From contig CAMFLR010000018.1 of assembly GCA_945957605.1 (NCBI GenBank), forward strand, positions 62,001 to 126,000: a DNA stretch of 64,000 bases, written 5' to 3'. The DNA is from an uncultured Isosphaeraceae bacterium (GTDB lineage Bacteria > Planctomycetota > Planctomycetia > Isosphaerales > Isosphaeraceae). Under the pieces are notes generated by a model that worked only from the letters and a program-made list of their open reading frames with translations, ran no database searches and was not told the origin of the DNA. A program made the position numbers and the translations under genes. Positions 12,942-36,505 of the stretch are shown here, piece after piece; the first letter of the stretch is position 1, and every line of letters starts with the position of its first letter.

Positions 12942-15266
12942 ATGGCGAATCGACGGAAGGGACATCTCGACGCCGTCGAGCGCCGGCTGACCGGTGCCAA
13001 GAAGATCGCACTGTTCGGCCACCGCAACGTTGGTAAGACGACGCTGCTAGCGATGTTCTATCGCCAGGCGTCGACCGGTCAGGTACCGGGTGTGCGCTTG
13101 GCGGCCGTCGACCCTCCGAGCGCCGAGTATCTCGCCGAGAAGATCCATCAAATCGAATCGGGCGAGCCGCTTGCCGGTACCCTGGCCGAGACCGAGCTGC
13201 GGCTGCGGCTCTATCACGGCCCGGCCCGGTTCGACCTGATCGTCAAGGATTACCAGGGCGAACACGTTACGCTGGGTAGCGACGAGCCGATCCAGCAATT
13301 TTTCGCCGATTGCGACGCCGTGCTCCTCTGCCTCGACCCCGAAGGTTCGTCGCATCCTGCCGAGCGTCGTCGTCGCCAGCAAGAAGTGGAAAACCTGCTC
13401 GAGCGGTACATCGACGGCTCGAAAGACGGTACGACCGATCGCCCTGTCGCGCTCTTGCTGACGAAGTTCGACCGCGTGATGGCCCAGGCTGGCTCCGGTG
13501 GCCAGGAAGCGGTCGAGCGGCTCGTCGAAGCCCGCTACGGCATGACTCGGCACTTGCTCGCGCGTCACGCACCGCGCGGGGCGATCTTCGCGGTCAGCTC
13601 GTATGGCCGAGGCGCCGTTGATGGCCGTCCTCCCGCCGAGCTTCATCCGTTCGGCCTGGAAGGCCCACTCGGCTGGCTGGCCGATCAGCTTGAAGCTAAC
13701 GATCGCGACCAGCTCGAATGGCTCTGGGACCTCGCTCCCAAGGACCTCCCGCGGCTAGCACGCGGAGTCGCGGCCTACGAGCGGCGTTACCCCAACACCG
13801 AACGCACCAACACATTCCGCAAGCGTCTCGCCACCGCCCGCCGCAAGCGTACCCGACGCGTTCTCGCAAGCTGCGTCGTTGCGCTTGGGCTCGTCGCCGC
13901 CGGTCTTGCCGGGTACGACGCCTACGGCTATCGCGAGGCCGTCGCGTTCGAGGCCGATCAACAGCCGGCGACCTTGGTCGAAACCACGTGGAACGACCTG
14001 CTGACCTGGCATCCCACCTTGCGTTACTTCTGGCCCGCCCGCGCCCGGCAGGCTGAGGAAAAGCTGGCCGAGTGGAAGGTAAAGGCCGCCCAAAATCGCG
14101 TCGCGGCTGGCACGGCCGACCCGGCGATTCGCGAACAGCTTGCCATGCTCAAGGAGCAGCGCCCCGCGCTCGCGCCTGAGATCGCCAAGGTCGAAAAGTC
14201 GCACGACGAAGCCCGGCACGACTCGCGCTGGAAGGACGTGAAAGCCGAAGCGATCGCCTCGGCCGATAAGCCCGCCGCGATCGACCTTGCCCTTCGCGCA
14301 TTCCTACGCGAATTCCCCGACTCGCCGCGCCGAACCGAAGTCGAAGCAATGATCGTCGCGAACCAGGCCCGCGTCGCCGAACGGCAGTCGTTGCTCGAGC
14401 GCAGGGTGATTGACGACCTCATCCGCACTGCCGCACTGCCCGACGCCGATTATCCCGACCTCATCGACCAGTCGCGGGCGTTCCTTAAAGATCATCCCGA
14501 AAGCACCCACCGCGCCGAGGTCGAGCGGCTCCAAGCAGGATTCGTCAAAACGCTCGACGACCGTCAATTTGAGCGTGCCAAAACCTTCTCCCGCGACTTC
14601 CCCACGCACTATCAAGCGCGGATCGAGAAGTACCAGGAATATCTCAAAGCCCACGAAGGCGGCGGCCTGCACACCAGCGAGGCCCGAGAGGCGAAAGACC
14701 GCATCCTTCGCGAGTGGGACGACAATTCGTACCGCGTCGGCTACGAGCTCTACACCACACATCCCGAAGACGCCGAAGGTGTTGCGGCGCGAATGCGCGA
14801 CTACCTTCAGCAGCATCCCGAAGGCCGCTACGTCACGCCAGCGAAAGACTTCCTCGCCTGGTGGGATAAGGTGACCGTCCCCGGCAATTACAAGGTGACG
14901 GCCCTGCGCGGCGAGTTCGATCCCGAAGTCGGCAAGTATCTTTCCGGCGGCGGACCCGACCTGGAAATATCGATCGAAGTCGGCGGCAAGACGTACGGTC
15001 CATCGCCGACGATCGCCAACTCGCACAAGCCAGTCTGGCGCTACACGTTCCCGCAAGCGATCGTCTGGAAGCTGGGCGACCCGGTGACGATCAAGGTCGT
15101 TGATACCGACTGGTCCGACTCGACCGTCGTCGTGCTCAACAGCAAGCCAGGCGACCCACTGGCGATGCGGCTTTTGAGCGGCACCGTGAGGCCGTCGAAG
15201 GGGGGGCACACCACCCTCTACTTCGCGTCGGACTTCAAGATGCCGGTTCTGCCCAGGCCCGAGTGA
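12942..15266 (+). CDS. Membrane-anchored P-loop GTPase with C2-like C-terminus
   Basis: A 774-residue protein. Residues 20-250 are a GTPase-like domain: Walker A GHRNVGKTT at 26-34, DYQGEH at 103-108 as the G3 position, CDAVLLCLDPEG, and LLTKFD at 172-177 as G4. A basic stretch (RKRLATARRKRTRR) precedes one membrane helix at about 307-325. Residues 330-640 are charged helical repeats with short ALRAFLREFPDSPRRTEVE-type units, recalling TPR-like tethers. Residues about 648-750 (YKVTALRGEF, DLEISIEVGGKTYGPSP, GDPVTIKVVDTDWSD) resemble a C2 beta-sandwich. The next gene begins 10 bases after the stop. I infer a nucleotide-controlled switch on the cytoplasmic face linked to a periplasmic rod and C2 tip; TRAFAC-type classification is from motifs. 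Confidence 0.8.
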   Translation: MANRRKGHLDAVERRLTGAKKIALFGHRNVGKTTLLAMFYRQASTGQVPGVRLAAVDPPSAEYLAEKIHQIESGEPLAGTLAETELRLRLYHGPARFDLIVKDYQGEHVTLGSDEPIQQFFADCDAVLLCLDPEGSSHPAERRRRQQEVENLLERYIDGSKDGTTDRPVALLLTKFDRVMAQAGSGGQEAVERLVEARYGMTRHLLARHAPRGAIFAVSSYGRGAVDGRPPAELHPFGLEGPLGWLADQLEANDRDQLEWLWDLAPKDLPRLARGVAAYERRYPNTERTNTFRKRLATARRKRTRRVLASCVVALGLVAAGLAGYDAYGYREAVAFEADQQPATLVETTWNDLLTWHPTLRYFWPARARQAEEKLAEWKVKAAQNRVAAGTADPAIREQLAMLKEQRPALAPEIAKVEKSHDEARHDSRWKDVKAEAIASADKPAAIDLALRAFLREFPDSPRRTEVEAMIVANQARVAERQSLLERRVIDDLIRTAALPDADYPDLIDQSRAFLKDHPESTHRAEVERLQAGFVKTLDDRQFERAKTFSRDFPTHYQARIEKYQEYLKAHEGGGLHTSEAREAKDRILREWDDNSYRVGYELYTTHPEDAEGVAARMRDYLQQHPEGRYVTPAKDFLAWWDKVTVPGNYKVTALRGEFDPEVGKYLSGGGPDLEISIEVGGKTYGPSPTIANSHKPVWRYTFPQAIVWKLGDPVTIKVVDTDWSDSTVVVLNSKPGDPLAMRLLSGTVRPSKGGHTTLYFASDFKMPVLPRPE

Positions 15267-25301: not shown

Positions 25302-26078
25302 TCAGGTACCGAATTCAGGACGACGGGTGTTGAGCTGCGACTGCAACCGCTGAATGATCGACGAGTGCATCTGCGAAACCCGCGACTCGCTCAGATCCAA
25401 GGTCGCACCGATCTCCTTCATCGTCAATTCTTCATAATAGTAAAGAATGATGATGAGGCGTTCGTTGCGATTCAGCCCCTTCGTCACCATGCGCATCAGG
25501 TCTTTGCGCTGGAGGCGACGGGTCGGGTCTTCACCCTTCTTGTCCTCGAGAATGTCGATCTCGCGGACGTCCTTGTAGCTGTCGGTTTCGTACCACTTCT
25601 TGTTCAGGCTGATGAGGCCAACAGCGTTGGCGTCCATTGCCATCTTTTCGTACTCGGGCATCGGCAGGCCAAGGCGTTCGGCCAGCTCGCTGTCCGTCGG
25701 CGGACGGCCGTGCTGGGCTTCGAGAGCCTTGCGGGCCTCTTCCATCTTCGAGTGCTTCGACCTGACCAGGCGAGGAACCCAGTCCATCGTTCGCAGTTCG
25801 TCGAGCATTGCACCTCGAATACGAGGCACGCAGTACGTTTCAAATTTCACGCCACGACCGAGGTCGAAGGCGTCGATCGCGTCCATCAGGCCGAAGACGC
25901 CGGCGGAAATAAGGTCGTCGAGATCGACCCCTTCCGGCAGCCTCTGCCAGATGCGCTCGGCGTTGTACTTCACCAGCGGCAAATACCGCTCGACCAGCCG
26001 GTTACGCAAGGGCGTGGTTGGGTGTTCCTTGAACTCCCGCCAGAGTTCCGTCACATCCACGTCCAGCTTGGTTGACAT
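25302..26078 (-). CDS. fliA: Flagellar-type sigma factor FliA/WhiG (sigma-28)
   Basis: A 258-residue sigma-70 family factor without region 1. Region 2 is visible as NRLVERYLPLVKYNAERIWQ, then DLISAGVFGLMDAIDAFDLGRGVKFETY and RIRGAMLDELRTMDW, the signature of FliA/WhiG proteins. Region 3 spans about 115-170, and region 4 ends with LTMKEIGATLDLSESRVSQMHSSIIQRL, the -35-binding helix-turn-helix. GGAGG eight bases upstream sets the start at 26078. It is the last gene of the flagellar block, where it would direct RNA polymerase to late flagellar promoters. A FlgM anti-sigma factor is not in the window. Confidence 0.95.
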   Translation of the reverse strand: MSTKLDVDVTELWREFKEHPTTPLRNRLVERYLPLVKYNAERIWQRLPEGVDLDDLISAGVFGLMDAIDAFDLGRGVKFETYCVPRIRGAMLDELRTMDWVPRLVRSKHSKMEEARKALEAQHGRPPTDSELAERLGLPMPEYEKMAMDANAVGLISLNKKWYETDSYKDVREIDILEDKKGEDPTRRLQRKDLMRMVTKGLNRNERLIIILYYYEELTMKEIGATLDLSESRVSQMHSSIIQRLQSQLNTRRPEFGT

Positions 26079-26313
26079 CCTGCAGACCTCCATGTCGGCT
26101 GCGAGAGCGGCACATCCTGTGCAGAGTTCTTTGTGAGGAGCTTCGCTCACGCCGGCAAGCGTTGGCGGCGTGTTCGACACCTCCAGCCCGGCTGCCCGCT
26201 CAGGAGCGAAGCCGTGCCCGCTTCCTCACTCAAACTCTCTCGCGGTCCAAGGAACCCGTATTCATCCTAAGTATCGGAAAATCGTCGCGATCGGCTTGAG
26301 TCGTACTGTCGAT

Positions 26314-26538
26314 TTATTGCGAACAATCGGCAGCGACAGCTTCGCTCGCGTGCTGCGCAGGGCGGCCGAACCGCGCCGCGATCGCCGGGAACAGTCGCAA
26401 GAGTGCTCCTTGCGCACTGCGCTTCTGTTCGGCCTTGCACGCACGAACGAGCCGGGATTCGGCAGCCAGTCCCGGCGGCCCTTCCCTCCCTTCAAGAGAC
26501 CGGACCATGCGGCGGAGTCCATCGGCTTGGTCGGACAT
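26314..26538 (-). CDS. Stand-alone FlhG-type DQAxxLR activator peptide
   Basis: A 74-residue protein starting MSDQADGLRRMVRS. Residues 3-9 exactly match the DQAxxLR motif that, in full-length FlhG/FleN, forms the N-terminal helix that stimulates FlhF GTPase activity. It begins 62 bases after flhF on the same strand with GGGGGAAG upstream of the ATG, the position where flhG normally lies. The MinD-type ATPase domain is absent: no KGGVGKT motif is present in this or any other frame before fliA. The rest (SRLVRACKAEQKRSAQGALLRL) is basic and unlike MinD. It could be a minimal FlhF activator or the remnant of a decayed flhG. Confidence 0.6.
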   Translation of the reverse strand: MSDQADGLRRMVRSLEGREGPPGLAAESRLVRACKAEQKRSAQGALLRLFPAIAARFGRPAQHASEAVAADCSQ

Positions 26539-26600: not shown

Positions 26601-27734
26601 TCAGCCGACAACATCCTGCCCCAGAATCAGCCGGGCTAGCCGGGCACGATTCGCAGGTTCAATGTCATCAGGCACAGCTTGGCCGGTTGTGATGTAGCTC
26701 ACCGGGCGATTCGATTGATTCAGAACCGCGAGCAAGCCCCCCATCCCCTCGGCCTCATCCAGCTTTGTCAGAATCAAGCGATCGGCGCGAACCATCGCGA
26801 ACCGTTCGACGGCGGCACGCAGGCTACGCTCACCGGCCGTTGCGCTCAAGACCAGATGGACCTCATCTGGCTGCGCAGCGGCAAGAAAATCGGCGAGCTC
26901 GCGAATTCGCACCTCATCGCGCGGGCTGCGACCCGCCGTATCGACGAGCACAAGATCAACATCCCCCAACTCGTCGATCATCCGCCGCATCTCATTCGGC
27001 GAATTGGCAACAACGAGCGGCAGGTCGATAATTTCCGCATATGTCCGCAATTGTTCGACGGCAGCAATCCGATAGGTATCAACTGTGACCAAGCCTGGAC
27101 GCAGCCCCTTGGTCAGCTTGAAGTCGGCAGCGAGCTTGGCGATCGTCGTCGTCTTCCCCACGCCCGTCGGCCCAACCAGGGCCACAACCCTGCGCGTGCC
27201 AGCTACGGCGGCAATCGGCGGGGCGATCGAAATACAATCCTCAACCGCTTCCGCGAGCGCAAGTTTGATAGCTTCGGGCCGATACACCTCGTCGGCTTCA
27301 AGGCGATCGGTCACGTAACGCGCGAGGTAACGGCAGAGTGTTTCGGGAACGTCCGACTCAAGCAACGCGGCGTAAATTGGTACGAGCGACGAAGGCAGAT
27401 CGGGCAGCAAATGATCGAGCCGGCCAACGCGGCTGAGGTCGGCGACCGCCGCGTGCAACTGGCCGAGTTGTTCGCCCACTTGCGAGCGAATAGCGTCGTT
27501 CGTTGTGGGCGATGTATATGCGGACGTGTCGACAGAAATCGGTGTTTCGGAATTGAGCGGACGATCGCTGGCGATGACTTCGACCATCTCGCGACGGCCC
27601 AGGCCGAACAGCCGGCGGCGACGAACTTCGCGAGTGTTGAGGATCACGGCATCACCGCCCAGGTCTCTGCGCACGTGCGCGAGCGCCTCTTTGAGCGAGC
27701 CAGCCCGATATCTCCTCGCATTCCCACTCGTCAT
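26601..27734 (-). CDS. flhF: Flagellar biosynthesis GTPase FlhF
   Basis: A 377-residue SRP-type GTPase. The N-terminal B-like domain (YRAGSLKEALAHVRRDLGGDAVILNTREV) is typical of FlhF. The NG domain follows: VVALVGPTGVGKTTTIAKLA (G1), VTVDTYRIAAVEQLRTYAEI (G2 region), LVDTAGRSPRDE (G3), LILTKLDEAEG (G4) and VSYITTGQAVPDDIE near the end. FlhF places the flagellar base at the membrane and sets its site and number. ATG 27734 has GGAGG upstream; a TTG four codons earlier overlaps that site. It follows flhA by 23 bases. Its usual partner FlhG appears here only as a short activator peptide. Confidence 0.96.
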   Translation of the reverse strand: MTSGNARRYRAGSLKEALAHVRRDLGGDAVILNTREVRRRRLFGLGRREMVEVIASDRPLNSETPISVDTSAYTSPTTNDAIRSQVGEQLGQLHAAVADLSRVGRLDHLLPDLPSSLVPIYAALLESDVPETLCRYLARYVTDRLEADEVYRPEAIKLALAEAVEDCISIAPPIAAVAGTRRVVALVGPTGVGKTTTIAKLAADFKLTKGLRPGLVTVDTYRIAAVEQLRTYAEIIDLPLVVANSPNEMRRMIDELGDVDLVLVDTAGRSPRDEVRIRELADFLAAAQPDEVHLVLSATAGERSLRAAVERFAMVRADRLILTKLDEAEGMGGLLAVLNQSNRPVSYITTGQAVPDDIEPANRARLARLILGQDVVG

Positions 27735-27757
27735 CGCTTTGCTCAACCTCCAGCGCC

Positions 27758-29896
27758 TTATTTCGCCAGGCCAACCGAAGCGGTCGACGCCTCATCCGGC
27801 ACGTCTTCTTCGGTCACCATGCCACACTCTTCCACCGGCGTATCGCGCGGAATTTCCCGCTGGCTCAGCACCACAAGCCTCGGCAAATCGGCCCGGGTCA
27901 GATCCTTGAGCACCGGTCGCGCAGCGGCCGAACCGAGTACGATCGGTGGGTGTCCCGCTTCAACCAGTGGCGCCACTGCCATCGCAACCGTCTTCACCAG
28001 GTCGCGCACCGCATCGGTGCCAAGCGCCGTTTCAGGACGCAACTCGTCTTCACCCGCCGCAACAAGCAAATCGTCGACCGTCTTCGACAGCATGACGACC
28101 CGCAATCGGCCATCCTTGCCGAGATAGTTTTGCACGATTCGTCGAGCCAGGGCGCGCCGAACATGCTCGGTAAGGATATCGGCGTCGCGCGTTTTTCCTG
28201 CGTGAATCGCCAAGGTTTCGAGAATCGTTTCCAGGTCGCGCACGCTCACACGTTCGCGCAAGAGATTCTGCAAAACTTGCTGCAATTCACCGGCACGAAG
28301 CAAGCCCGGCACGACTTCATCTACCAAGGCCGGCGAAGTCGCCCGCGCCCGGTCGAGCAATCGGCCAACCTGTTCGCGTGTCATCATCTCATCGGCGTGT
28401 GCCAGCACGACTTCACCGAAGTGACCGGCCACAACCGCCGATGCCTCGACAATCCGGCATCCTGCCAGCTCGGCAACTTCGCGGCCGTCGGCATGAATCC
28501 AGACTGCGGGCTGACCTGTCGTGGGATCGACACCGTCGCGACCGTCCGGACGTGTCACCAAACCCGCGGGCGGCACGGCGAGCAATCGGCCTGCGAAGGC
28601 GACGCCCTGCCCCACGACGGTTCCACGAATTTTCAAACGATAATCATGTGGTCCCAGGGCGATCTCGTCGCGAATCCGCACCTGCGGCACGATGAGACCA
28701 AGATCTTGCGCCACGCGATGGCGAATCGCTCGCAAGCGGTCGAGCAAATCTCCCCCGCGCGTGGGATCGGCCAGGCCAATGAGGCGATAGCCAATCTCGA
28801 GCTCGAGCGGGTCGACGTGCAGCAGATCTTCCATCCGCTCACCGATCGGCTCGGCGGGCACTGGCTCGGGCTCGGCTTCGATCGTGAGTTGCGACGTCGC
28901 GTCCTGAGCCTGGTTGCCGTTCGCAATGAAGTAGGCACCCAGCCCAAGCGCAGCAGCAATGGCGAGCAGCGGAATGGCGGGGAGCCCCGTGAACGACAGC
29001 AAGCCGAGAAACACCGCCGCAACGACAAGCACGCGAGGCCGGCCGAGAAGCTGACCAACCACTTCGCCGCCGAGGTCGGATTCTTCGCTCGACCGCGTGA
29101 CAATCAAACCTGCGGCAAGAGCCGTAAGAAACGCCGGCACCTGGCTCACAAGGCCGTCACCAATCGTCAGCTTGGTGAAGACGTCGGCCGCTTGGCTGAA
29201 GCTCATCTTGTAATTGACGATGCCCAGAAACAGCCCCGCGAAGATGTTCACGAACGTGATGATCACGCCCGCAACGGCATCACCGCGCACGAACTTTCCG
29301 GCACCGTCCATCGCACCGAAAAAGTCGGCCTGGCGATGCACATTCTCACGACGCGACTGCGCCTGCTTTTGGTCGATAAGTCCCGCGTGCAAATCGGCAT
29401 CAATCGCCATCTGCCGCCCCGGCATGCCGTCGAGCATGAACCGTGCCGCAACTTCGCTGATGCGCGTTGCACCTTTCGTGATCACGACGAACTGGATCAC
29501 GAAAATAATGATAAAGATGATCACACCAACAACAACTTGATCACCCGCGACGAACTCGCCAAACGCCCGAATCACGCCTCCCGCCGCATCAACGCCGGCC
29601 GTGCCGGCGCGGGTGAGCGTGAGTCGCGTCGTGGCGACGTTCAGAACCAGTCGCGTGAGCGTTGTTGTAAGGAGAATCGTGGGAAATGCACTGAATTCGA
29701 GCGGCGAGCGGATCGCCAGGGTCGTCAGCAAAACGAGCACGGCGAGCGTGATATTGGCAGCGAGGAGGAGGTCGAGCACGGCCGGCGGCACCGGCACGAT
29801 GAAGACGAGCAACGCCCCTACGAACGTGATCGGCAGCACTACGCCCGTGAGGCGCGACCAGCCGGTGTCGATAGGGCTAAGCGTCGCCGAAGACAT
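27758..29896 (-). CDS. flhA: Flagellar export gate protein FlhA
   Basis: A 712-residue protein of normal FlhA length. Eight membrane segments fill residues 18-330 (for example LLLAANITLAVLVLLTTLAI and VVGVIIFIIIFVIQFVVITKGA). The cytoplasmic FHIPEP loop region is clear: ARFMLDGMPGRQMAIDADLHAGLID, with the conserved charged residues. The soluble C-terminal domain (350-712) includes LEIGYRLIGLAD, the linker region, and QLLDRARATSPALVDEVVPGLL-like export-chaperone docking parts. FlhA forms the nonameric export gate and couples proton flow to substrate export. A GGAGGAGAGGA site precedes the ATG. It lies 190 bases after flhB. Confidence 0.97.
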   Translation of the reverse strand: MSSATLSPIDTGWSRLTGVVLPITFVGALLVFIVPVPPAVLDLLLAANITLAVLVLLTTLAIRSPLEFSAFPTILLTTTLTRLVLNVATTRLTLTRAGTAGVDAAGGVIRAFGEFVAGDQVVVGVIIFIIIFVIQFVVITKGATRISEVAARFMLDGMPGRQMAIDADLHAGLIDQKQAQSRRENVHRQADFFGAMDGAGKFVRGDAVAGVIITFVNIFAGLFLGIVNYKMSFSQAADVFTKLTIGDGLVSQVPAFLTALAAGLIVTRSSEESDLGGEVVGQLLGRPRVLVVAAVFLGLLSFTGLPAIPLLAIAAALGLGAYFIANGNQAQDATSQLTIEAEPEPVPAEPIGERMEDLLHVDPLELEIGYRLIGLADPTRGGDLLDRLRAIRHRVAQDLGLIVPQVRIRDEIALGPHDYRLKIRGTVVGQGVAFAGRLLAVPPAGLVTRPDGRDGVDPTTGQPAVWIHADGREVAELAGCRIVEASAVVAGHFGEVVLAHADEMMTREQVGRLLDRARATSPALVDEVVPGLLRAGELQQVLQNLLRERVSVRDLETILETLAIHAGKTRDADILTEHVRRALARRIVQNYLGKDGRLRVVMLSKTVDDLLVAAGEDELRPETALGTDAVRDLVKTVAMAVAPLVEAGHPPIVLGSAAARPVLKDLTRADLPRLVVLSQREIPRDTPVEECGMVTEEDVPDEASTASVGLAK

Positions 29897-30086: not shown

Positions 30087-31112
30087 TCAGGAAATGGGCC
30101 AAATATCCGTAAGTTCGCCGAGGATTTCAGGACTCAGCGGCGTACCGGGACGACTCGACGCAAGGGCCAGCGCAATCGCGAGTTTGGGTGCCTCAACAAT
30201 CTCAACTCTCGCGGCCGCGGCCGCCTTCCGCATCGCCAAACCCGTCGCCCCCTTCGCCGACGATCGCACGTTGATCCGCGACGCCGTCGGAGCCCCCGCA
30301 AGCACGACAGTAATCCCCTGTTCGCCCGTCACCACGAGCCTTGCCCCCTGCATCAACTCGGGACTATTCCCGCGCAATGCTTGCGCCAATCTTCGCCGGC
30401 GCGATTTCGCCGCCGGATCACCATCCATCGCCTTCTGATCTTCTCGCGCCTCGTCGGGAGTGAGTCGCAACATCGACTCGAACCGCATTCGCCCCAGCGC
30501 GTAATCAATCAGGCCGAGCACAGCCGCCGCGACAGCCATCGTTACCAGCAGCCCGCGCACAAGATCGCACCAGCCCCGCGCCATGGCGGGAATCGGCAAT
30601 CGCGCGTACCCATTGAACTCGTTCATGCGCATGCCAATCGCCCAAACAGCGACGGCCAGAATCACAATCGTTTTGCCGAGAATCCACGCACCTCGACTCA
30701 ACCTTGCACCTAGGCCACGTCCACCGACGGCCCACAATCGCCCAGGATCGAGAGCCAGTACGCCCGGTGCCCACAGCCCGCCCACCTGCGCCTGATGCGC
30801 GGCAATTCCAGCCGCAACCAAGCCAAGAAACAGCAGGATCAGCGGACCCAGCACGCCAAACGCGGCATCCCGCATGAGGGTGACACTTTCACCCACCTCG
30901 AGCGAGAGCGGCAGTTCACCTGTCCACGGAGTCCTCACCAGCGTGACCAAGCCGGTCGCAAGTTGCTCGCCGCAAACACCGAGCAACAAGCTTCCTGCAA
31001 GCAAAGCGGCAGCGCCGGTAAGCTCGGGACTGTGCGACACCTGGCCGCGATCGCGGGCTTGTTGCCGTCGCAGTTTTGATGGTGCTTGTGTGCGATCTTC
31101 CGACTCGGACAT
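30087..31112 (-). CDS. flhB: FlhB export-switch protein lacking the NPTH motif
   Basis: A 341-residue FlhB. The N-terminus EDRTQAPSKLRRQQARDRGQV, four membrane segments within residues 30-205, and the linker EDQKAMDGDPAAKSRRRRLAQ are normal. In family members the cytoplasmic domain then has VVVNPTHYAVAL, where the Asn-Pro bond is cleaved autocatalytically to switch substrate specificity. Here the aligned stretch is VVTGEQGITVVL: NPTH is replaced by GEQG at residues 263-266 with no change in length. Later conserved parts (EIVEAPKLAIALA, GTPLSPEILGELTDI) remain, so the gene is not frameshifted. Autocleavage is predicted to be absent. It starts 6 bases after fliR. Confidence 0.93.
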   Translation of the reverse strand: MSESEDRTQAPSKLRRQQARDRGQVSHSPELTGAAALLAGSLLLGVCGEQLATGLVTLVRTPWTGELPLSLEVGESVTLMRDAAFGVLGPLILLFLGLVAAGIAAHQAQVGGLWAPGVLALDPGRLWAVGGRGLGARLSRGAWILGKTIVILAVAVWAIGMRMNEFNGYARLPIPAMARGWCDLVRGLLVTMAVAAAVLGLIDYALGRMRFESMLRLTPDEAREDQKAMDGDPAAKSRRRRLAQALRGNSPELMQGARLVVTGEQGITVVLAGAPTASRINVRSSAKGATGLAMRKAAAAARVEIVEAPKLAIALALASSRPGTPLSPEILGELTDIWPIS

Positions 31113-31118
31113 CGCCGC

Positions 31119-31865
31119 TCAACCTCCTTCGGAGCCGAGCGCGAGATCGAACCACGATCCCCACGCTACGTTGAGCGTTCCCACCAAGGCCACAATTCCC
31201 AAGATCGCGATGCCCGTCCCCAGCACAAACCGAATTGGCAGCGATAAGGTCGCCAGCGGGAGCGAAGGCGCGGCCCGACTGATAAGGCCGAGTGCAACAC
31301 CCGCAAGCGTTAGGGCAATGGCCGCGGGAGCAGCCGCGCGCACAGCCAGGGCGAGTGCAACTCCCACCCGCCCAAACGCGAGTTGTGCAACTTCGGCGTT
31401 GAGACCGAATTCGACGGCGGGCAGGGCTTCGTAGCTTTCGACAAGCACTTTCGTCAACTTGAGCGGACCATCGAGCGTCACAAAAACGCCGATGGCGATC
31501 AGTCCGTAAAGATGTCCCAGCGGCGTAAGCTCATATCCTGCATCCGGGTCAAAAAGCGCCGCGGCGGAAAGTCCCGCCTGCGCACCAACAACTTCACCCG
31601 CCTGTCGCGCCCCGGCAATCACAAGCCCCGCCGTCCAACCCAGGCTCGCGCCGATCAGCCCTTCGACCAGAACCGCCAGGATGAGATTCTCGGCCTGATT
31701 GGGAACATGCAAACCAGGCACAATGAGCGGTGAGAGAATCGTCGTGAGCGCCGCTGCGACTAAGATCCGATAGCGCACTTCAAGTCCAGGCGCAGCCAGC
31801 ACCGGCGCGGTGAAAGCCAGTCCCAGTGTGCGCGAAAAGACGAGTGCAATCGCCAGCGGATTCAC
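31119..31865 (-). CDS. fliR: Flagellar export protein FliR
   Basis: A 248-residue membrane protein with six hydrophobic segments. Typical FliR elements are the N-terminal LALVFSRTLGLAFTAPVLA-like stretch, then ILVAAALTTILSPLIVPG, LVEGLIGASLGWTAGLVIAGARQAGEVVGAQAGL and DGPLKLTKVLVESYEALP. FliR forms the helical export-gate core together with FliP and FliQ. The start is GTG at 31865, with AGGAC about ten bases upstream; no ATG fits better. Length is near the usual 250-260. It is separated from fliQ by a 460-base gap filled with palindromic repeats. Confidence 0.93.
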   Translation of the reverse strand: MNPLAIALVFSRTLGLAFTAPVLAAPGLEVRYRILVAAALTTILSPLIVPGLHVPNQAENLILAVLVEGLIGASLGWTAGLVIAGARQAGEVVGAQAGLSAAALFDPDAGYELTPLGHLYGLIAIGVFVTLDGPLKLTKVLVESYEALPAVEFGLNAEVAQLAFGRVGVALALAVRAAAPAAIALTLAGVALGLISRAAPSLPLATLSLPIRFVLGTGIAILGIVALVGTLNVAWGSWFDLALGSEGG

Positions 31866-31936
31866 GAGTTGGTTCCGTCCTGCAAAGTCCTAGCGGGCTA
31901 TCTCAGCAAGATTCCGGAGAGTGCTAACCTCACACT

Positions 31937-31961
31937 CGCTCCCATGCTCCGCGTGGGAGCG
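31937..31961. repeat. Palindromic repeat with TGCTCCGCG loop
   Basis: CGCTCCCA and TGGGAGCG form a perfect 8-bp stem around the loop TGCTCCGCG. The loop matches the copies at 6809-6833 and 16694-16716 exactly, while the arms differ and remain complementary. It lies inside the fliQ-fliR gap. Confidence 0.75.
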
Positions 31962-31995
31962 TCTTGGCGACCGCTCCGCGGGCATGAATTTCGTA

Positions 31996-32020
31996 GGGTG
32001 CCACTGGCTCTGCCAGTGCT
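31996..32020. repeat. GTGCCACTGGC palindromic repeat unit
   Basis: GGGTGCCACTGGCTCTGCCA then GTGCT, with a CACTGGC/GCCAGTG stem. It is paired with the reverse-oriented unit at 32286-32310 and closely matches the unit at 4805-4828. Confidence 0.75.
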
Positions 32021-32165
32021 CTTCGTTTTCCGTCTACGTTTGAAGCAACGCGTTCGGTATTCGATACAACGAGCAATCGGGTAGCCGAGACCACTCATTG
32101 TCCCGATCACGAAGCAATAAGAGGATGTCGTCACCTCTTCCGCTTCGCCTCTTGTGGCTGCGCCA

Positions 32166-32187
32166 CCTGGACAACAAGTTGTCCAGG
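32166..32187. repeat. CCTGGACAAC palindrome with CCACC flanks
   Basis: CCTGGACAAC and GTTGTCCAGG form a perfect 10-bp stem with an AA loop, flanked by GCCA on the left and CCACCC on the right. The core is shared with 16809-16824. It lies between the two oppositely oriented units in the fliQ-fliR gap. Confidence 0.75.
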
Positions 32188-32285
32188 CCACCCAACACTA
32201 CCCTTTGCGTTGTCCCTACCAGTTAGCTCCTAGTCATCTTAGGCAGGGTGTCACTTGCACCCCTCGTCTTCCATTTGCAATCAGG

Positions 32286-32310
32286 AGCACTGGCAAAGCC
32301 AGTGGCACCC
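32286..32310. repeat. GTGCCACTGGC repeat unit, reverse orientation
   Basis: AGCACTGGCAAAGCCAGTGG then CACCC, with a CACTGGC/GCCAGTG stem. It is the reverse complement type of the unit at 31996-32020 and ends 16 bases before the fliQ stop. Confidence 0.75.
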
Positions 32311-32325
32311 AACATGCACCATGCA

Positions 32326-32592
32326 TCAGATCAGCTCGGGAATCGAGCCAATCGTCTCGCTCGCATAGGCAACCCAGCGTGAAATCAACCACGGCAAGAT
32401 CACAAGAATCGCCAGCAAAACGGCGATCAATCGCGGTACCTGCGCCACGACTTGCTCGTGCATCTGCGTCATGGTCTGCAACACGCCGATCACGAGCCCC
32501 ACAATCAGCGCGACGGCGAGCAGCGGCCCACCCAGCAGGAGCGCCATTTGCAGCGCTCCGCGCGACCAGTCGATCACCTGTGAACCATCCAT
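32326..32592 (-). CDS. fliQ: Flagellar export protein FliQ
   Basis: An 88-residue protein of normal FliQ length with two long membrane helices, MALLLGGPLLAVALIVGLVIGVLQ and LIAVLLAILVILPWLISRWV. Between them TMTQMHEQVVAQVPR matches the family loop (Q-x-Q-E-x-T-L-x-F-x-P-K in better-known members, with variation). FliQ assembles with FliP and FliR into the export-gate core. GGGAGAAAG precedes the ATG. It lies 18 bases after fliP on the same strand and is followed by the repeat-filled gap before fliR. Confidence 0.93.
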   Translation of the reverse strand: MDGSQVIDWSRGALQMALLLGGPLLAVALIVGLVIGVLQTMTQMHEQVVAQVPRLIAVLLAILVILPWLISRWVAYASETIGSIPELI

Positions 32593-32610
32593 GGCGGCTT
32601 TCTCCCAACG

Positions 32611-33498
32611 TCAACCCGCGGGACGAATCGCGAACGTCTGCAACAACCGCGACGCCACCAGAAACCAACCGTCCGCCAGCACGAAAAGAATCAGCTTGAG
32701 CGGCAAGGCCACCATCGATGGCGGCAGCATGAACATTCCCATCGCTGAAAGCACGGCCGAAACCACGAGGTCGATCACCAGGAACGGCAGGTAGATGATG
32801 AACCCGATGATGATCGCCGTCGTCAGCTCGCTGAGCAAAAACGCCGACGCGAGGATTGCGAACGGAACCTCATCGACATATTCCGGCTCCTTTTCGTCGG
32901 GAGAGGAATAGCTGTAAAGCTCCGTCACATAATGCCCGTGATTCGTCCGCACGATCTGGTCGAACATGAACTGCCTGATCGGCTTCGAGCCTTCTTCCCA
33001 CGCCTTGTTCGCGTCGATCTTCCCGGCAAGCAACGGTGCCACGGCACGCTGATGAACAGTCTCGCCCACCGGCTTCATCACAATCGCCGTGAGAAGCAGA
33101 GCAAGTGCTGTGAGCACCTGATTGCCGGGAATTTGCGGACTTCCCAGCGCCTGCCGCAGAAGCACCAGCACGATCTGAATTCGCACGAATGACGTGAGCA
33201 TCAGCACGGCGGCGGGTGCCATTGAAACCGCCGCGAACAGCGCGACGTTTTGTAGGCTCTTCATCATGTCGCCGCTGGGCAACACACTGGGGACGACGGG
33301 TGCGGCCGGCTTTGCGGGCTCAGTTTCGCCGACGGGCGCATTGGCACGTGAAGTCGCTTGCGCGGCGACCGTGCCGCACCAGCAAAGACCGCACACGAGC
33401 ATGACGATCGCCATGCGCTGCACTGTTCGGCGAGTCTCGTTCGCGAGCACACTCGAACCGGCGGTGACGGTTTTGCAGACCATTGCCTTTCCGATCAT
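32611..33498 (-). CDS. fliP: Flagellar export protein FliP
   Basis: A 295-residue FliP with an N-terminal signal-like segment (MAIVMLVCGLCWCGTVAAQA, about residues 29-48) and a Pro/Ala-rich linker. The family core follows: MAPAAVLMLTSFVRIQIVLVLLRQALGSPQIPGNQVL, then LTAIVMKPVG, and the C-terminal VPFAILASAFLLSELTTAIIIGFIIYLPFLVIDLVVSAVLSAMGMFMLPP. FliP pentamers form the export-gate pore with FliQ and FliR. Its ATG overlaps the fliO stop (ATGA), with GGAGG upstream, showing translational coupling. An internal ATG at about residue 29 is a weaker alternative start. Confidence 0.95.
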   Translation of the reverse strand: MIGKAMVCKTVTAGSSVLANETRRTVQRMAIVMLVCGLCWCGTVAAQATSRANAPVGETEPAKPAAPVVPSVLPSGDMMKSLQNVALFAAVSMAPAAVLMLTSFVRIQIVLVLLRQALGSPQIPGNQVLTALALLLTAIVMKPVGETVHQRAVAPLLAGKIDANKAWEEGSKPIRQFMFDQIVRTNHGHYVTELYSYSSPDEKEPEYVDEVPFAILASAFLLSELTTAIIIGFIIYLPFLVIDLVVSAVLSAMGMFMLPPSMVALPLKLILFVLADGWFLVASRLLQTFAIRPAG

Positions 33499-33992
33499 AC
33501 TGCGCCTCCCACACGCTGGCGCAACGTGGAAAGCAGCGGCGCAACAGCAGGTCGAGGCGCGGCTTTCACCGGTTCTGACTTTACATCCTGATCCATCTCG
33601 CCGAGCAAGCTGGGCGCCCCTTGCGGCCCGGTGCCGACGATCAGCACGCGATCACCGGCTTTCAGCAAGTAGACAGAGTGCTTGGGCGAAAGCGATGTCT
33701 TGCTCAACACCTTCAGCGGACCACCCTCACCACCTGGCTTGAGCTTGCGCGCGGTGACAACCACGCCGCCAAACACCGCGAGCGCGAGAGCGATTCCCGT
33801 CGTGCCAACCCACCATCCGCCCGGAGATGTTGAAGAACTGGCGGCCGACTGGTCGATCTTATGACGTGGGATGATCCGTTGCCGTCCGCTCGGTTCATTC
33901 GCAGAAACGGCTGGTTTGGTTTCGCCAGCCGCACTTGCGCATGCAGGCGCGAGCAACAAAAACATCACGGCAAATCGGCAAGTAATCGACAT
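33495..33992 (-). CDS. fliO: Flagellar biosynthesis protein FliO
   Basis: A 165-residue protein with a signal peptide (MSITCRFAVMFLLLAPACASAAG) and a second membrane helix near residues 65-83 (GTTGIALALAVFGGVVVTA). The C-terminal cytoplasmic part KVLSKTSLSPKHSVYLLKAGDRVLIVGTGPQGAPSLL is characteristic of FliO, which assists assembly of the FliP pore. Its stop overlaps the fliP start. The frame continues upstream to 34193 across the neighbouring fliG-like gene, but only the part from 33992 has coding character. The start is 20 bases after the mini-FliG stop and lacks a strong ribosome binding site. Confidence 0.9.
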   Translation of the reverse strand: MSITCRFAVMFLLLAPACASAAGETKPAVSANEPSGRQRIIPRHKIDQSAASSSTSPGGWWVGTTGIALALAVFGGVVVTARKLKPGGEGGPLKVLSKTSLSPKHSVYLLKAGDRVLIVGTGPQGAPSLLGEMDQDVKSEPVKAAPRPAVAPLLSTLRQRVGGAV

Positions 33993-34011
33993 ATTGATTC
34001 TGGCCGGCGGT

Positions 34012-34560
34012 TTATACAAGCAGCACCTCCTGGCCGTTGGGGTCGGGCAGCGTGATTTGCCCCTGGTCGTGTAGCCGACGAAACCACTCGGCCACTTCAA
34101 CCTGCGCCGTTTCGGCCGCATCGAGGCGGAACGGTCCCAGGCGATCGAGGCGATTGGTAAGTTCCGTTGCGGCATCGCCGACAAGCGCGGCAAGCACCTT
34201 TTCCTTCACGGGCCGCGAAGCTCCTGCGAGTGCCAGCGCCCAGGTTTCGGCATCTTCGGGATGATATGCCTCGCGGATATCGACATCATCCATGTTCACA
34301 AGATCATCGAATACGAATCGCAGCCGCTTCAAACCGAGACCGTAAAACTCTTCGAGCACGGCCTGTTGTTCGGCGGGGGCAATTCGTTCGAGGCGCGCAA
34401 TTTCGAGCGTGACGGCTTCAACTGCAGCGCGATCGAGCTGCGCCAGTAGTTGGGAGGCGAGCGGCTGTTCGAGGCTGACGACGAGAATCGCCGCCTTGCG
34501 CAGCGGGTTATCGCCTGAGATGTTCACTGCCTGGCCATCGAAGTTTGCTGAGGGGTTCAT
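34012..34560 (-). CDS. fliG: Mini-FliG: FliG_N joined to FliG_C without the middle domain
   Basis: A 182-residue protein; full FliG is about 330. Residues 18-75 match the FliF-binding N-terminal domain: NPLRKAAILVVSLEQPLASQ, then VTLEIARLERIAPAEQQAVLEEF. Residues 83-172 match the C-terminal torque domain: VFDDLVNMDDVDIREAYHPED, then WALALAGASRPVKEKVLAAL and LGPFRLDAAETAQVEVAEWFRRL-DQGQI. The middle domain with the EHPQR FliM-binding motif is missing, and the two halves join around residues 76-82 without a frameshift. Its ATG overlaps the fliF stop (ATGA), so it is coupled to its expected partner. It may form a simplified switch ring. Confidence 0.85.
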   Translation of the reverse strand: MNPSANFDGQAVNISGDNPLRKAAILVVSLEQPLASQLLAQLDRAAVEAVTLEIARLERIAPAEQQAVLEEFYGLGLKRLRFVFDDLVNMDDVDIREAYHPEDAETWALALAGASRPVKEKVLAALVGDAATELTNRLDRLGPFRLDAAETAQVEVAEWFRRLHDQGQITLPDPNGQEVLLV

Positions 34561-36143
34561 CCCACGGCCCCCCCTTCTCCCTGACCAATCCAGCGCTGGA
34601 GCACTCCGGCGGCGGCTTCGGGGTTGCGTCGCACAAGGTCGCGCACTCGTTCCGAAGGTGCAGGAACCGGTCCCGAAGGAGCATCGACCGACAGCCCCGA
34701 TCGCACGCGCGTTCGCGCGGGTTTCACTTCGGGTCGACGCGAGTTGAGCATGCCGAATGCCGTCATCAACGCGAGCGAAACCGCGACACCAACACTGGCT
34801 CCAAGCGCAGCCACAGGGGCCCATGCTGGCCAGTTTTTCACGGTGTCCGTCGCACCCGCAGGCATGATGATTGGTGCCGATGCGCCAAGGTCATCGAGTG
34901 CCATGGTCACTTTCACTAGGCCGCGCTCGGCCGTTGGCACCAAAACAGCGCACGCACCTTCCACCGTGTCTTCGGTTCTTTCCACAAAAGGTGTCAAATC
35001 TTCACGTGAAGGATTCTTGGTGGGATGAGTTTCGCGGAAGATCTTCAAATAGTAGCTCCGCGGCACCTGCACCCAGATTTGTGCCCTGCCGACGGTTGGT
35101 AGCGCGGGCAACGCAAGCGCTTGCGGAGGCTGATGCGCATGCGGCTCGGTTGCGGCGATTTCCTTTGCAGCAATCGCCGCGTCCTGCTCATTTTCCAGGC
35201 CGATCGGATGATTTGGCTTCATCGCGTCGGCCACGGGAAACGCAGGAGCGGCATTCGCGTTTTCTGCACCGCTAGCGCGATGCGCATGCGCCGGATCGGC
35301 GACAGGTTCGGCTAGCGTCGGCGGCTCAACCTGCACGACGACGTCGATACCGGGAATGATCGGCCCCAGCTTTTCCAGCAGCAAGTCGCGCAGTTCTTCA
35401 CCGCGGGCCATGCTCTGCGTCTGAGACGCGGCCGAGGGATCTCCCTTTCGGGTGTAGAAATGTCCCTGGCGATCGCTGATCGTTATATCTTCGGCGCGCA
35501 GGCTTTCAACGGACGTCGAAAGCAATGTTTGAATCGCGCTAATGACTGTATGTCTGGGACGCGGCTGGGCGTCGATCTGCACCGTCGCGCTCACCTCGAC
35601 CTTTGGCCTTAAGCCAGATTTGATCGTGCTGCGAATGATAGAAACATGCGCTGAGCCGCCGTCGAGGTAATTCTCGACCATCGCTTCGAGTCTGCGCTCT
35701 TCCTGCCATTGCTGTTTGGCGAGTCGGTCTTGCGGCGAACTCCACGGATCGGCGGTCGGTGGTTCGCGATCGATCTTCTCGAGCGAATACGGCTCGGCAC
35801 CGTGTTTCGCGATGGCGTCGATGGCATCAGCCCATTTGATGGGCGGAACGCCAATGCGGTTGCTTGCATCAACCTTGAAAGTCACCTTCTCCTGCACAAG
35901 CGCCTTTTGAATCGCCTGCGCAGTGTCTCGCGAGAATTTGCGACCGTCGTATAACCAGGCCCATTCCTGGCGCTCGGTGGGAATCGCCAGGTAGGCAACG
36001 CCAACAAGCGCCGCCACGGCGAGCCCGATCAGGGCCAGTCGCGTCGAACGACCTCGGGTGCTCACCCAGCGACGGGCCCGTTCCATCTCCCCGCGCACGC
36101 GTGTCGCGGCCGAGGCGGACGACGTCGATGAATCGGTCCGCAT
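34557..36143 (-). CDS. fliF: Flagellar MS-ring protein FliF
   Basis: A 528-residue MS-ring protein. One membrane helix lies near residue 35-55 (STRLALIGLAVAALVGVAYLA) and a second near 445-468 (WAPVAALGASVGVAVSLALMTAFG). Between them are the ring-building domains, with WLYDGRKFSRDTAQAIQKALVQEKVTFKV, QQWQEERRLEAMVENYLDG and AHVSIIRSTIKSGLRPKVEVSATV. The C-terminal RVRDLVRRNPEAAAGVLQRWI matches the FliG-binding tail. Start 36143 was chosen because GGGGAGG lies seven bases upstream; the frame opens earlier at a TTG. It heads the minus-strand flagellar block and overlaps mini-fliG by four bases. Confidence 0.92.
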   Translation of the reverse strand: MRTDSSTSSASAATRVRGEMERARRWVSTRGRSTRLALIGLAVAALVGVAYLAIPTERQEWAWLYDGRKFSRDTAQAIQKALVQEKVTFKVDASNRIGVPPIKWADAIDAIAKHGAEPYSLEKIDREPPTADPWSSPQDRLAKQQWQEERRLEAMVENYLDGGSAHVSIIRSTIKSGLRPKVEVSATVQIDAQPRPRHTVISAIQTLLSTSVESLRAEDITISDRQGHFYTRKGDPSAASQTQSMARGEELRDLLLEKLGPIIPGIDVVVQVEPPTLAEPVADPAHAHRASGAENANAAPAFPVADAMKPNHPIGLENEQDAAIAAKEIAATEPHAHQPPQALALPALPTVGRAQIWVQVPRSYYLKIFRETHPTKNPSREDLTPFVERTEDTVEGACAVLVPTAERGLVKVTMALDDLGASAPIIMPAGATDTVKNWPAWAPVAALGASVGVAVSLALMTAFGMLNSRRPEVKPARTRVRSGLSVDAPSGPVPAPSERVRDLVRRNPEAAAGVLQRWIGQGEGGAVG

Positions 36144-36505
36144 CAATCGCCTCCCCATGCCGTCGAGCAATTTTGCTCAACAGCCAGAGCGGACGAGTCC
36201 GGCTCGACATTCGCCTGATTCACGCTCGAAGCGCGAACTTTGGGCAAACGGCCCCTTCCCTGGAGTCTGAGCCTTCCGCATCCTGCGAGGCAGAGTTAGC
36301 CACAATTGAGGATTTCTGTCAACGCGGAGTGATTGTTCCGCTGGTTTGAGCACCAACGGGGTGGAATTGGCGATTGAGGCGATGTGGATCGGCGTGAATC
36401 GTCTTGGAACAGGCGCGAACCCGTTTTGATATTCCCTGCACTGGTAAAGAAATCGCCGATGGAGACGTAGCCGATTGTTGCTGCGGCTTTGCAGGAGTAA
36501 TCACC
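36144..36505. other. Divergent promoter region of the flagellar block
   Basis: This gap lies between fliF (minus) and a small basic protein gene (plus). A candidate promoter for the plus-strand gene is visible (see the separate entry). No sigma-28 or sigma-54 type consensus was found for the flagellar side. No coding frame is convincing. Confidence 0.4.
36404..36433 (+). promoter_or_regulatory. Candidate sigma-70 promoter
   Basis: TTGGAA (36404-36409) and GATATT (36428-36433) are separated by 18 bases, about 70 bases before the start of the small basic protein. Both hexamers match the housekeeping consensus only partly. Confidence 0.3.

Follow-up and report, generated by a model that had tools for sequence, protein, structure and literature searches.

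Probable Repeated Loss of the FlhG ATPase Domain Leaves a Conserved DQAxxLR Helix beside FlhF in the Isosphaeraceae

FlhG is a MinD-type ATPase with an N-terminal DQAxxLR enhancer helix and a C-terminal membrane-targeting sequence, and a live question is which of its functions is central, the activation of FlhF or the ATPase cycle. A review describes the glutamine of DQAxxLR as co-catalytic in the FlhF dimer, where it replaces a cytidine of the SRP RNA, and FlhG dimers as binding the membrane via the C-terminal sequence (PMC12826062). In Bacillus subtilis, the activator glutamine outweighs ATP hydrolysis in importance: FlhG Q8A resembles an flhG deletion, the ATPase mutant D65A leaves hook distribution without discernible change, and FlhG without the membrane sequence shows a modest effect (PMC12327844). 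No published report of an ATPase-less FlhG was found in the literature that we searched, which mostly left subscription papers outside.

We analyzed a 64,000-nucleotide stretch of DNA (the window) from an uncultured member of the Isosphaeraceae, a family of soil and freshwater bacteria. Its flagellar genes lie on the same strand in the order fliF, fliG, fliO, fliP, fliQ, fliR, flhB, flhA, flhF, a short open reading frame (ORF), and fliA (table 1). The FlhF that the original prediction had named as the neighbor of the short ORF is real: it scored 195.2 bits against TIGR03499 (cut-off 174.15) and 1.6e-45 against PF00448, as an SRP-type NG GTPase with a B domain, and FliA matched TIGR02479 at 1.6e-79. 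The short ORF begins 62 nt after the stop codon of flhF and is followed by fliA, and therefore occupies the place of flhG, directly downstream of flhF. It starts with ATG, 5 nt behind a Shine-Dalgarno-like GGGGGAA, and encodes a 74-residue protein that begins MSDQADGLRRMVRSLEGREG... and reads in full MSDQADGLRRMVRSLEGREGPPGLAAESRLVRACKAEQKRSAQGALLRLFPAIAARFGRPAQHASEAVAADCSQ. The N-terminus, MSDQADGLRR, contains DQADGLR at residues 3-9, which fits DQAxxLR. In contrast to FlhG, the ORF has no MinD/ParA-type ATPase domain with a Walker A motif by Pfam or NCBIfam; it matched nothing in Pfam at E<=10 or in NCBIfam at E<=1, and there was no significant match in the PDB. Thus, a DQAxxLR frame with a ribosome binding site and no ATPase, as originally predicted, was borne out, and the link of the peptide to FlhG rests on motif, position, and family comparison. 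Lacking the ATPase domain, for which it was tested, the ORF does not count as a member of FlhG, yet its mode of action is very probably that of the FlhG N-terminus. It resembles FlhG (YlxH, FleN, MinD2) in its position after flhF and before fliA, in DQAxxLR at residues 3-9, in a predicted N-terminal helix and, in some relatives only, in a C-terminal stretch resembling the FlhG end; it differs in its length (about 74 vs. about 300 residues) and in the lack of the ATPase domain.

Table 1. Features of the flhF-fliA region in the window (positions of the 64,000-nucleotide stretch).
Feature	Position	Strand	Basis or remark
Short FlhG remnant ("mini-FlhG"), putative, 74 aa	26314..26538, stop codon included	-	Place, length class, and motif common to 15/16
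Putative activator (enhancer) helix, codons 1-16, DQAxxLR	26491..26538	-	Purifying selection on codons 2-14; predicted helix
Residues 46-59, LLRLFPAIAARFGR: candidate relic of the membrane-targeting sequence at the FlhG C-terminus, unproven for the window copy	26362..26403	-	Shuffle test; short low-confidence helix 50-57
Shine-Dalgarno-like GGGGGAA	26544..26550	-	5 nt before ATG
flhF, SRP-type GTPase, presumed target of the peptide	26601..27746	-	TIGR03499, PF00448, model
fliA, FliA/WhiG-family sigma factor	25302..26078, likely ATG 26078	-	TIGR02479; ORF extends to GTG at 26180
flhA, export gate	27758..29896	-	PF00771, 2.3e-235
flhB, fliR, fliQ, fliP, fliO, fliG, fliF: remaining basal-body/export cluster	30087..36170	-	

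The gap between flhF and fliA spans 523 nt in the window but 1261 nt in G008 and 1355 nt in G059, the full-length relatives closest to it, and the ATPase domain is thus physically missing from the window locus. The case that the original prediction had set against itself, a full flhG in relatives with the window copy frameshifted, fails on the same comparison. A frameshift or assembly artefact was rejected, since the DNA itself lacks the domain in 16 genomes; these include assemblies of 3-9 contigs (G021, G024, G048, G049, and G051), and a congener of the window genome (G001), with an FlhF 79% identical, carries the same short form. About 200 nt upstream of fliA (about 26268-26303, minus strand), we observed a promoter-like TCAAGCC-N13-TCCGATA (window spacing), perhaps a FliA-type promoter; a simple pattern for this element matched 17 of 42 loci, of short and long forms. 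Elsewhere in the window (12942-15266, plus strand), a 774-residue protein carries a DO-GTPase2 domain.

The spread of the short form was addressed by searching 45 Isosphaeraceae (Planctomycetota) genomes with two queries, FlhF and a profile (A1) built from 11 full-length FlhG proteins. FlhF was present in 41 of the 45 genomes and the FlhG ATPase (A1, E<=1e-20) in 26, counting one that retains a damaged piece only (G013) and one, 64% complete, with an FlhG ATPase match but no FlhF match (G053). The 41 FlhF genomes thus divide into 25 with the FlhG ATPase and 16 with none (G000, which is the window genome, G001, G007, G014, G015, G017, G021, G024, G040, and G046-G052). In 15 of these 16 genomes, the gap between flhF and fliA is filled by an ORF of 59-78 residues that starts M/V-x-DQA(D/E)xLR, with GTG as start codon in G040, and is preceded by a purine-rich Shine-Dalgarno-like stretch. 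The search of related genomes for the same short form, as the original prediction had proposed, therefore returned the same ORF, motif, Shine-Dalgarno-like sequence, and gap in 14 others, so that the window ORF is not a frame that arose by accident. In the sixteenth genome, G052, the frame after flhF (locus L098) reads MDDPAESLG, and both the glutamine and the arginine of the motif are gone. G011 was not counted among the short forms: the contig that carries its flhF breaks off early, leaving a DQA frame of 41 residues, and a full FlhG is encoded on a different contig. A wider sample of 80 loci, nearly all from Planctomycetota, comprised 66 long FlhG (the damaged G013 included), 5 short forms, 8 loci without the motif (three with a contig ending near flhF, one being G052), and 1 that was cut off. 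The five short loci are contigs of G001, G007, G017, G015, and G046, and no short form was seen outside the Isosphaeraceae in this small sample. The G013 protein itself (L105, 273 aa) has a damaged ATPase, with a profile match split in two and the middle missing, and looks like a further ATPase loss under way. In G027, G032, G036, and G038, as well as at loci L170 and L181, FlhF is followed by neither a DQAxxLR peptide nor FlhG in the gap; the frame in the gap of L170 and L181 resembles a small membrane protein. The four genomes had no FlhG ATPase by A1 at E<=1e-15, and they carry flagellin.

A separate MinD-like FlhG, for which the original prediction had also proposed a search, was not found in the window genome: the best A1 match was 8.7e-10, compared with 6.5e-143 to 3.8e-154 for the true FlhG of G008, G010, and G019. 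Across G000, G001, G007, G014, G015, G017, G021, and G024, the best E-values ranged from 4.8e-14 (G015) to 8.7e-10 (G000). Other MinD/ParA-like ATPases do occur in these genomes, as would be expected if the split were only apparent and the ATPase half, encoded elsewhere or reached via a frameshift, worked with the peptide. However, these matches lie far below those of true FlhG and span the common nucleotide-binding region only, and the 236 nt between the end of the window ORF and the ATG of fliA are too short for the domain. Moreover, G021 (5 contigs) and G024 (3 contigs), the short-form genomes with the fewest contigs in that search and rated 99% complete, are likewise without the FlhG ATPase. 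Thus, we regard an ATPase half working from elsewhere as highly improbable. A second FlhG elsewhere had been rejected as a candidate by profile search of 12 genomes and then of the 45 family genomes.

In trees built from FlhA, FlhF, and FliA (versions of 43 and 40 rows), the short forms were scattered. The genus of the window stands beside the full-length G008/G059, G021 stands beside the full-length G002, and the short forms of genus g14 stand beside the full-length G005/G018 group; genera g7 and g15 grouped together, and the place of G017 was unsure. The 40-row tree required a minimum of 4 state changes, with well-supported branches forcing 4, and a single short-form clade was rejected in it (log-likelihood 195 lower, AU p 2.24e-5). 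The 43-row tree needed 5 changes, and if regain of the domain is disallowed, both trees imply 5 losses. The rows dropped were G011b and G023b (no FlhF) and, from the 40-row tree, also G006, G037, and G028 (long branches); G023, G042-G046, G053, and G054 were partial or included only as fetched, and G043, G053, G054, and the flhF contig of G023 stand in no tree. Because the short forms do not make up one clade and the helix was kept each time, FlhG was cut down repeatedly to its putative FlhF-activating helix. Where the original prediction saw a single case, the sequence comparisons show it to be one of several separate losses. We concluded that the ORF is a genuine gene for a small protein, evidently descended from flhG by deletion of the entire MinD-type ATPase domain.

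The full FlhG proteins of the Isosphaeraceae mostly end in PGFFxxLAARWALxRVA, and the tails of the short forms were compared with a 52-column profile built from the C-terminal 52 residues of 19 full-length FlhG proteins, with 500 shuffles for each tail. Scores as high were reached by 1 shuffle for G021, 1 for G007, 3 for G051, 6 for G001, and 6 for G048, but by 101 for the window copy, which therefore does not pass, and the remaining nine copies likewise gave no match. An earlier version with 34 columns and 200 shuffles gave 0 for G021, 0 for G007, 5 for G001, 4 for G051, and 31 for the window. The matching tails indicate that at least some of the short forms consist of the N-terminus and the C-terminus with the middle cut out; that the window copy, by its kinship with G001, is also an N- plus C-terminal piece is a guess. 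A membrane anchor common to every short form was rejected, with 5 of 15 copies at <=6 of 500 shuffles, and the hydrophobic moments and tail charge of the short forms showed nothing clear. The predicted structure of the peptide (six alignment rows) was poor overall (mean pLDDT 57); it contained a helix at residues 3-16, with block pLDDT values of about 79 and 68, and a short, low-confidence helix at residues 50-57. The FlhF model was good (85.5) and matched the solved FlhF of S. putrefaciens and B. subtilis (8r9r and 2px0), and the FlhF GTPase motifs were invariant in an 8-row alignment that included six short-form genomes.

The flagellar system in which the peptide is found is itself strongly reduced. 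Flagellin (PF00669) was found in none of the 31 Isosphaeraceae genomes examined (of 45), whereas 13 of 13 planctomycetes of other families have it; rod/hook proteins (PF00460) matched in 1 of 28 genomes, weakly, compared with 5 of 5 outside the family; and FliM (PF02154) did not exceed the cut-off in any of 28 genomes, with two weak matches below it, compared with 5 of 5 outside. The FliM/FliN C-terminal domain (PF01052) was present in 24 of 31 genomes. In the window genome, its sole match is a 380-residue protein (L230, G000:C4, 1492-2634, minus strand), possibly a fused FliM-FliN. A crude look for the motif of the FlhG-docking peptide at the FliM/FliN N-terminus, with start codons unsettled, found none in 24 loci. 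The export base is retained in the family as FliF, FliG, FliOPQR, FlhAB, FlhF, and FliA. Four members of the family are described, in a published comparison, as producing no motile swarmers and having few flagellar genes (PMC5352709). The filament-less basal bodies of Buchnera, which is thought to be non-motile, are similar in that the export core is kept and the filament is absent (PMC3459982); in contrast, the Isosphaeraceae are free-living planctomycetes and have kept FlhF and the FlhG helix. Since flagellin is missing in full-length and short-form genomes alike, the filament was lost before, or apart from, the ATPase. Because flagellin and a recognizable FliM are missing and rod/hook genes nearly so, "flagellar counting" is probably moot, and it is unlikely that flagellar number is what matters here. 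The original prediction that activation and counting were separated and only the activator kept thus stands in one part, a helix without the ATPase, conserved in relatives; the counting probably does not hold in a family without flagellin, and "only the activator" does not hold everywhere, because the tails of G021, G007, and G001 resemble the C-terminal end of FlhG.

The loss of flagellin, of almost all rod/hook matches, and of a recognizable FliM might also mean that the flagellar locus is decaying and that the ORF is a dying flhG remnant that no longer functions, and this possibility was weighed on the pattern of conservation. All 15 short ORFs share D3, Q4, A5, L8, and R9, encoded by varying codons (six for R9, four for L8). 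Pairwise comparison of the 15 ORFs (105 pairs) gave, for codon positions 1/2/3, 388/256/750 differences across codons 2-14; in codons 15-30, a stretch unaligned beyond register and thus a rough contrast, they numbered 999/1006/1065. Within genera (17 pairs from g1, g7, g14, and g15, which are not independent), codons 2-14 had pS 0.404 and pN 0.111, a pN/pS of about 0.27 that is near the FlhF values (FlhF C-terminus, pS 0.39-0.69 and pN 0.08-0.12), whereas the aligned tail had pS 0.46-0.67 and pN 0.45-0.51. In a simple neutral simulation of four pairs, the observed identity was reached in 442, 1601, 41, and 17 of 20000 runs, the pair G024/G007 (1601) being the weak one. These results indicated that, within genera, codons 2-14 are under purifying selection and the tail is close to neutral, giving the picture of a constrained N-terminal helix with a nearly free tail. 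The near-neutral tail would suit a dying remnant, as would the damaged ATPase of G013 and the decayed copy of G052, whose lost motif shows that the peptide was dispensable at least once. In G052, FlhF also changes faster (pN/pS vs. G049 0.136/0.34, compared with 0.084/0.42 for its sister G050) and has altered motifs; this co-decay with the activator motif, one case only, counts in favor of the peptide acting on FlhF. Against a remnant, 15 of 16 copies are intact and have a Shine-Dalgarno-like sequence, the constraint on codons 2-14 is close to that on FlhF, the same five residues were kept after separate losses, and FlhF is well conserved, which together make a functionless remnant unlikely. 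Flagellar remnants without a filament, combined with selection on the helix, instead suggest that selection maintains FlhF and the activator helix in an export base without a filament.

Thus, we proposed that the short gene is an ATPase-less descendant of flhG and that its peptide probably acts as the activator of FlhF in a flagellar export base that has no filament, where production, binding, and activation are all inferred. As it does within full-length FlhG, the N-terminal helix would most likely bind the FlhF dimer and contribute Q4 to the composite active site, which would speed GTP hydrolysis and reset FlhF. Loss of the ATPase domain removes ATP-dependent dimerization, and the usual C-ring and membrane cycle of FlhG cannot run as described; activation would no longer be gated by that dimerization or by the C-ring partners of FlhG, and would become constitutive and set by the amount of peptide. 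In some lineages, activation might perhaps also be set by membrane contact of a basic or amphipathic tail. The proposed arrangement is similar to SRP RNA on Ffh-FtsY in that a small accessory element speeds a paired SRP-type GTPase, the FlhG glutamine having been described as taking the place of the SRP RNA cytidine (PMC12826062); it differs in being a peptide rather than RNA and in its putative target, the FlhF homodimer. Conservation tells that the helix matters and not how it acts, and no ATPase is left to release or gate it, so that it could bind FlhF mainly as a stabilizing or placing partner or as a competitive brake. However, conservation falls precisely on the residues of the activator motif as described, the co-catalytic glutamine included, and we consider such a role improbable; it is from this motif that GTPase activation by the peptide is proposed. 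In summary, activator kept and ATPase lost is well supported as an evolutionary account by the comparisons made here, and plausible as a functional one. The fullest form of the proposal, a free one-helix GTPase-activating peptide that arose by repeated loss of the ATPase domain and constitutively drives FlhF in an export machine without filament or hook, has in our estimate about an even chance of being correct.

The natural reductions agree in order with the B. subtilis results, with the helix kept, the membrane end kept in some, and the ATPase dropped, and the repeated retention of the helix suggests that this is the portion of FlhG of greatest importance. If the proposal is true, evolution has split the activator role of FlhG from its ATPase role and retained the activator alone. 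Nature has deleted the ATPase more than once, sparing the activator helix alone, and thereby provides minimal FlhF-activator pairs for structural and GTPase work. Moreover, since FlhF and its putative activator are under selection in the Isosphaeraceae, where no filament can form, FlhF must do something besides setting flagellar number.
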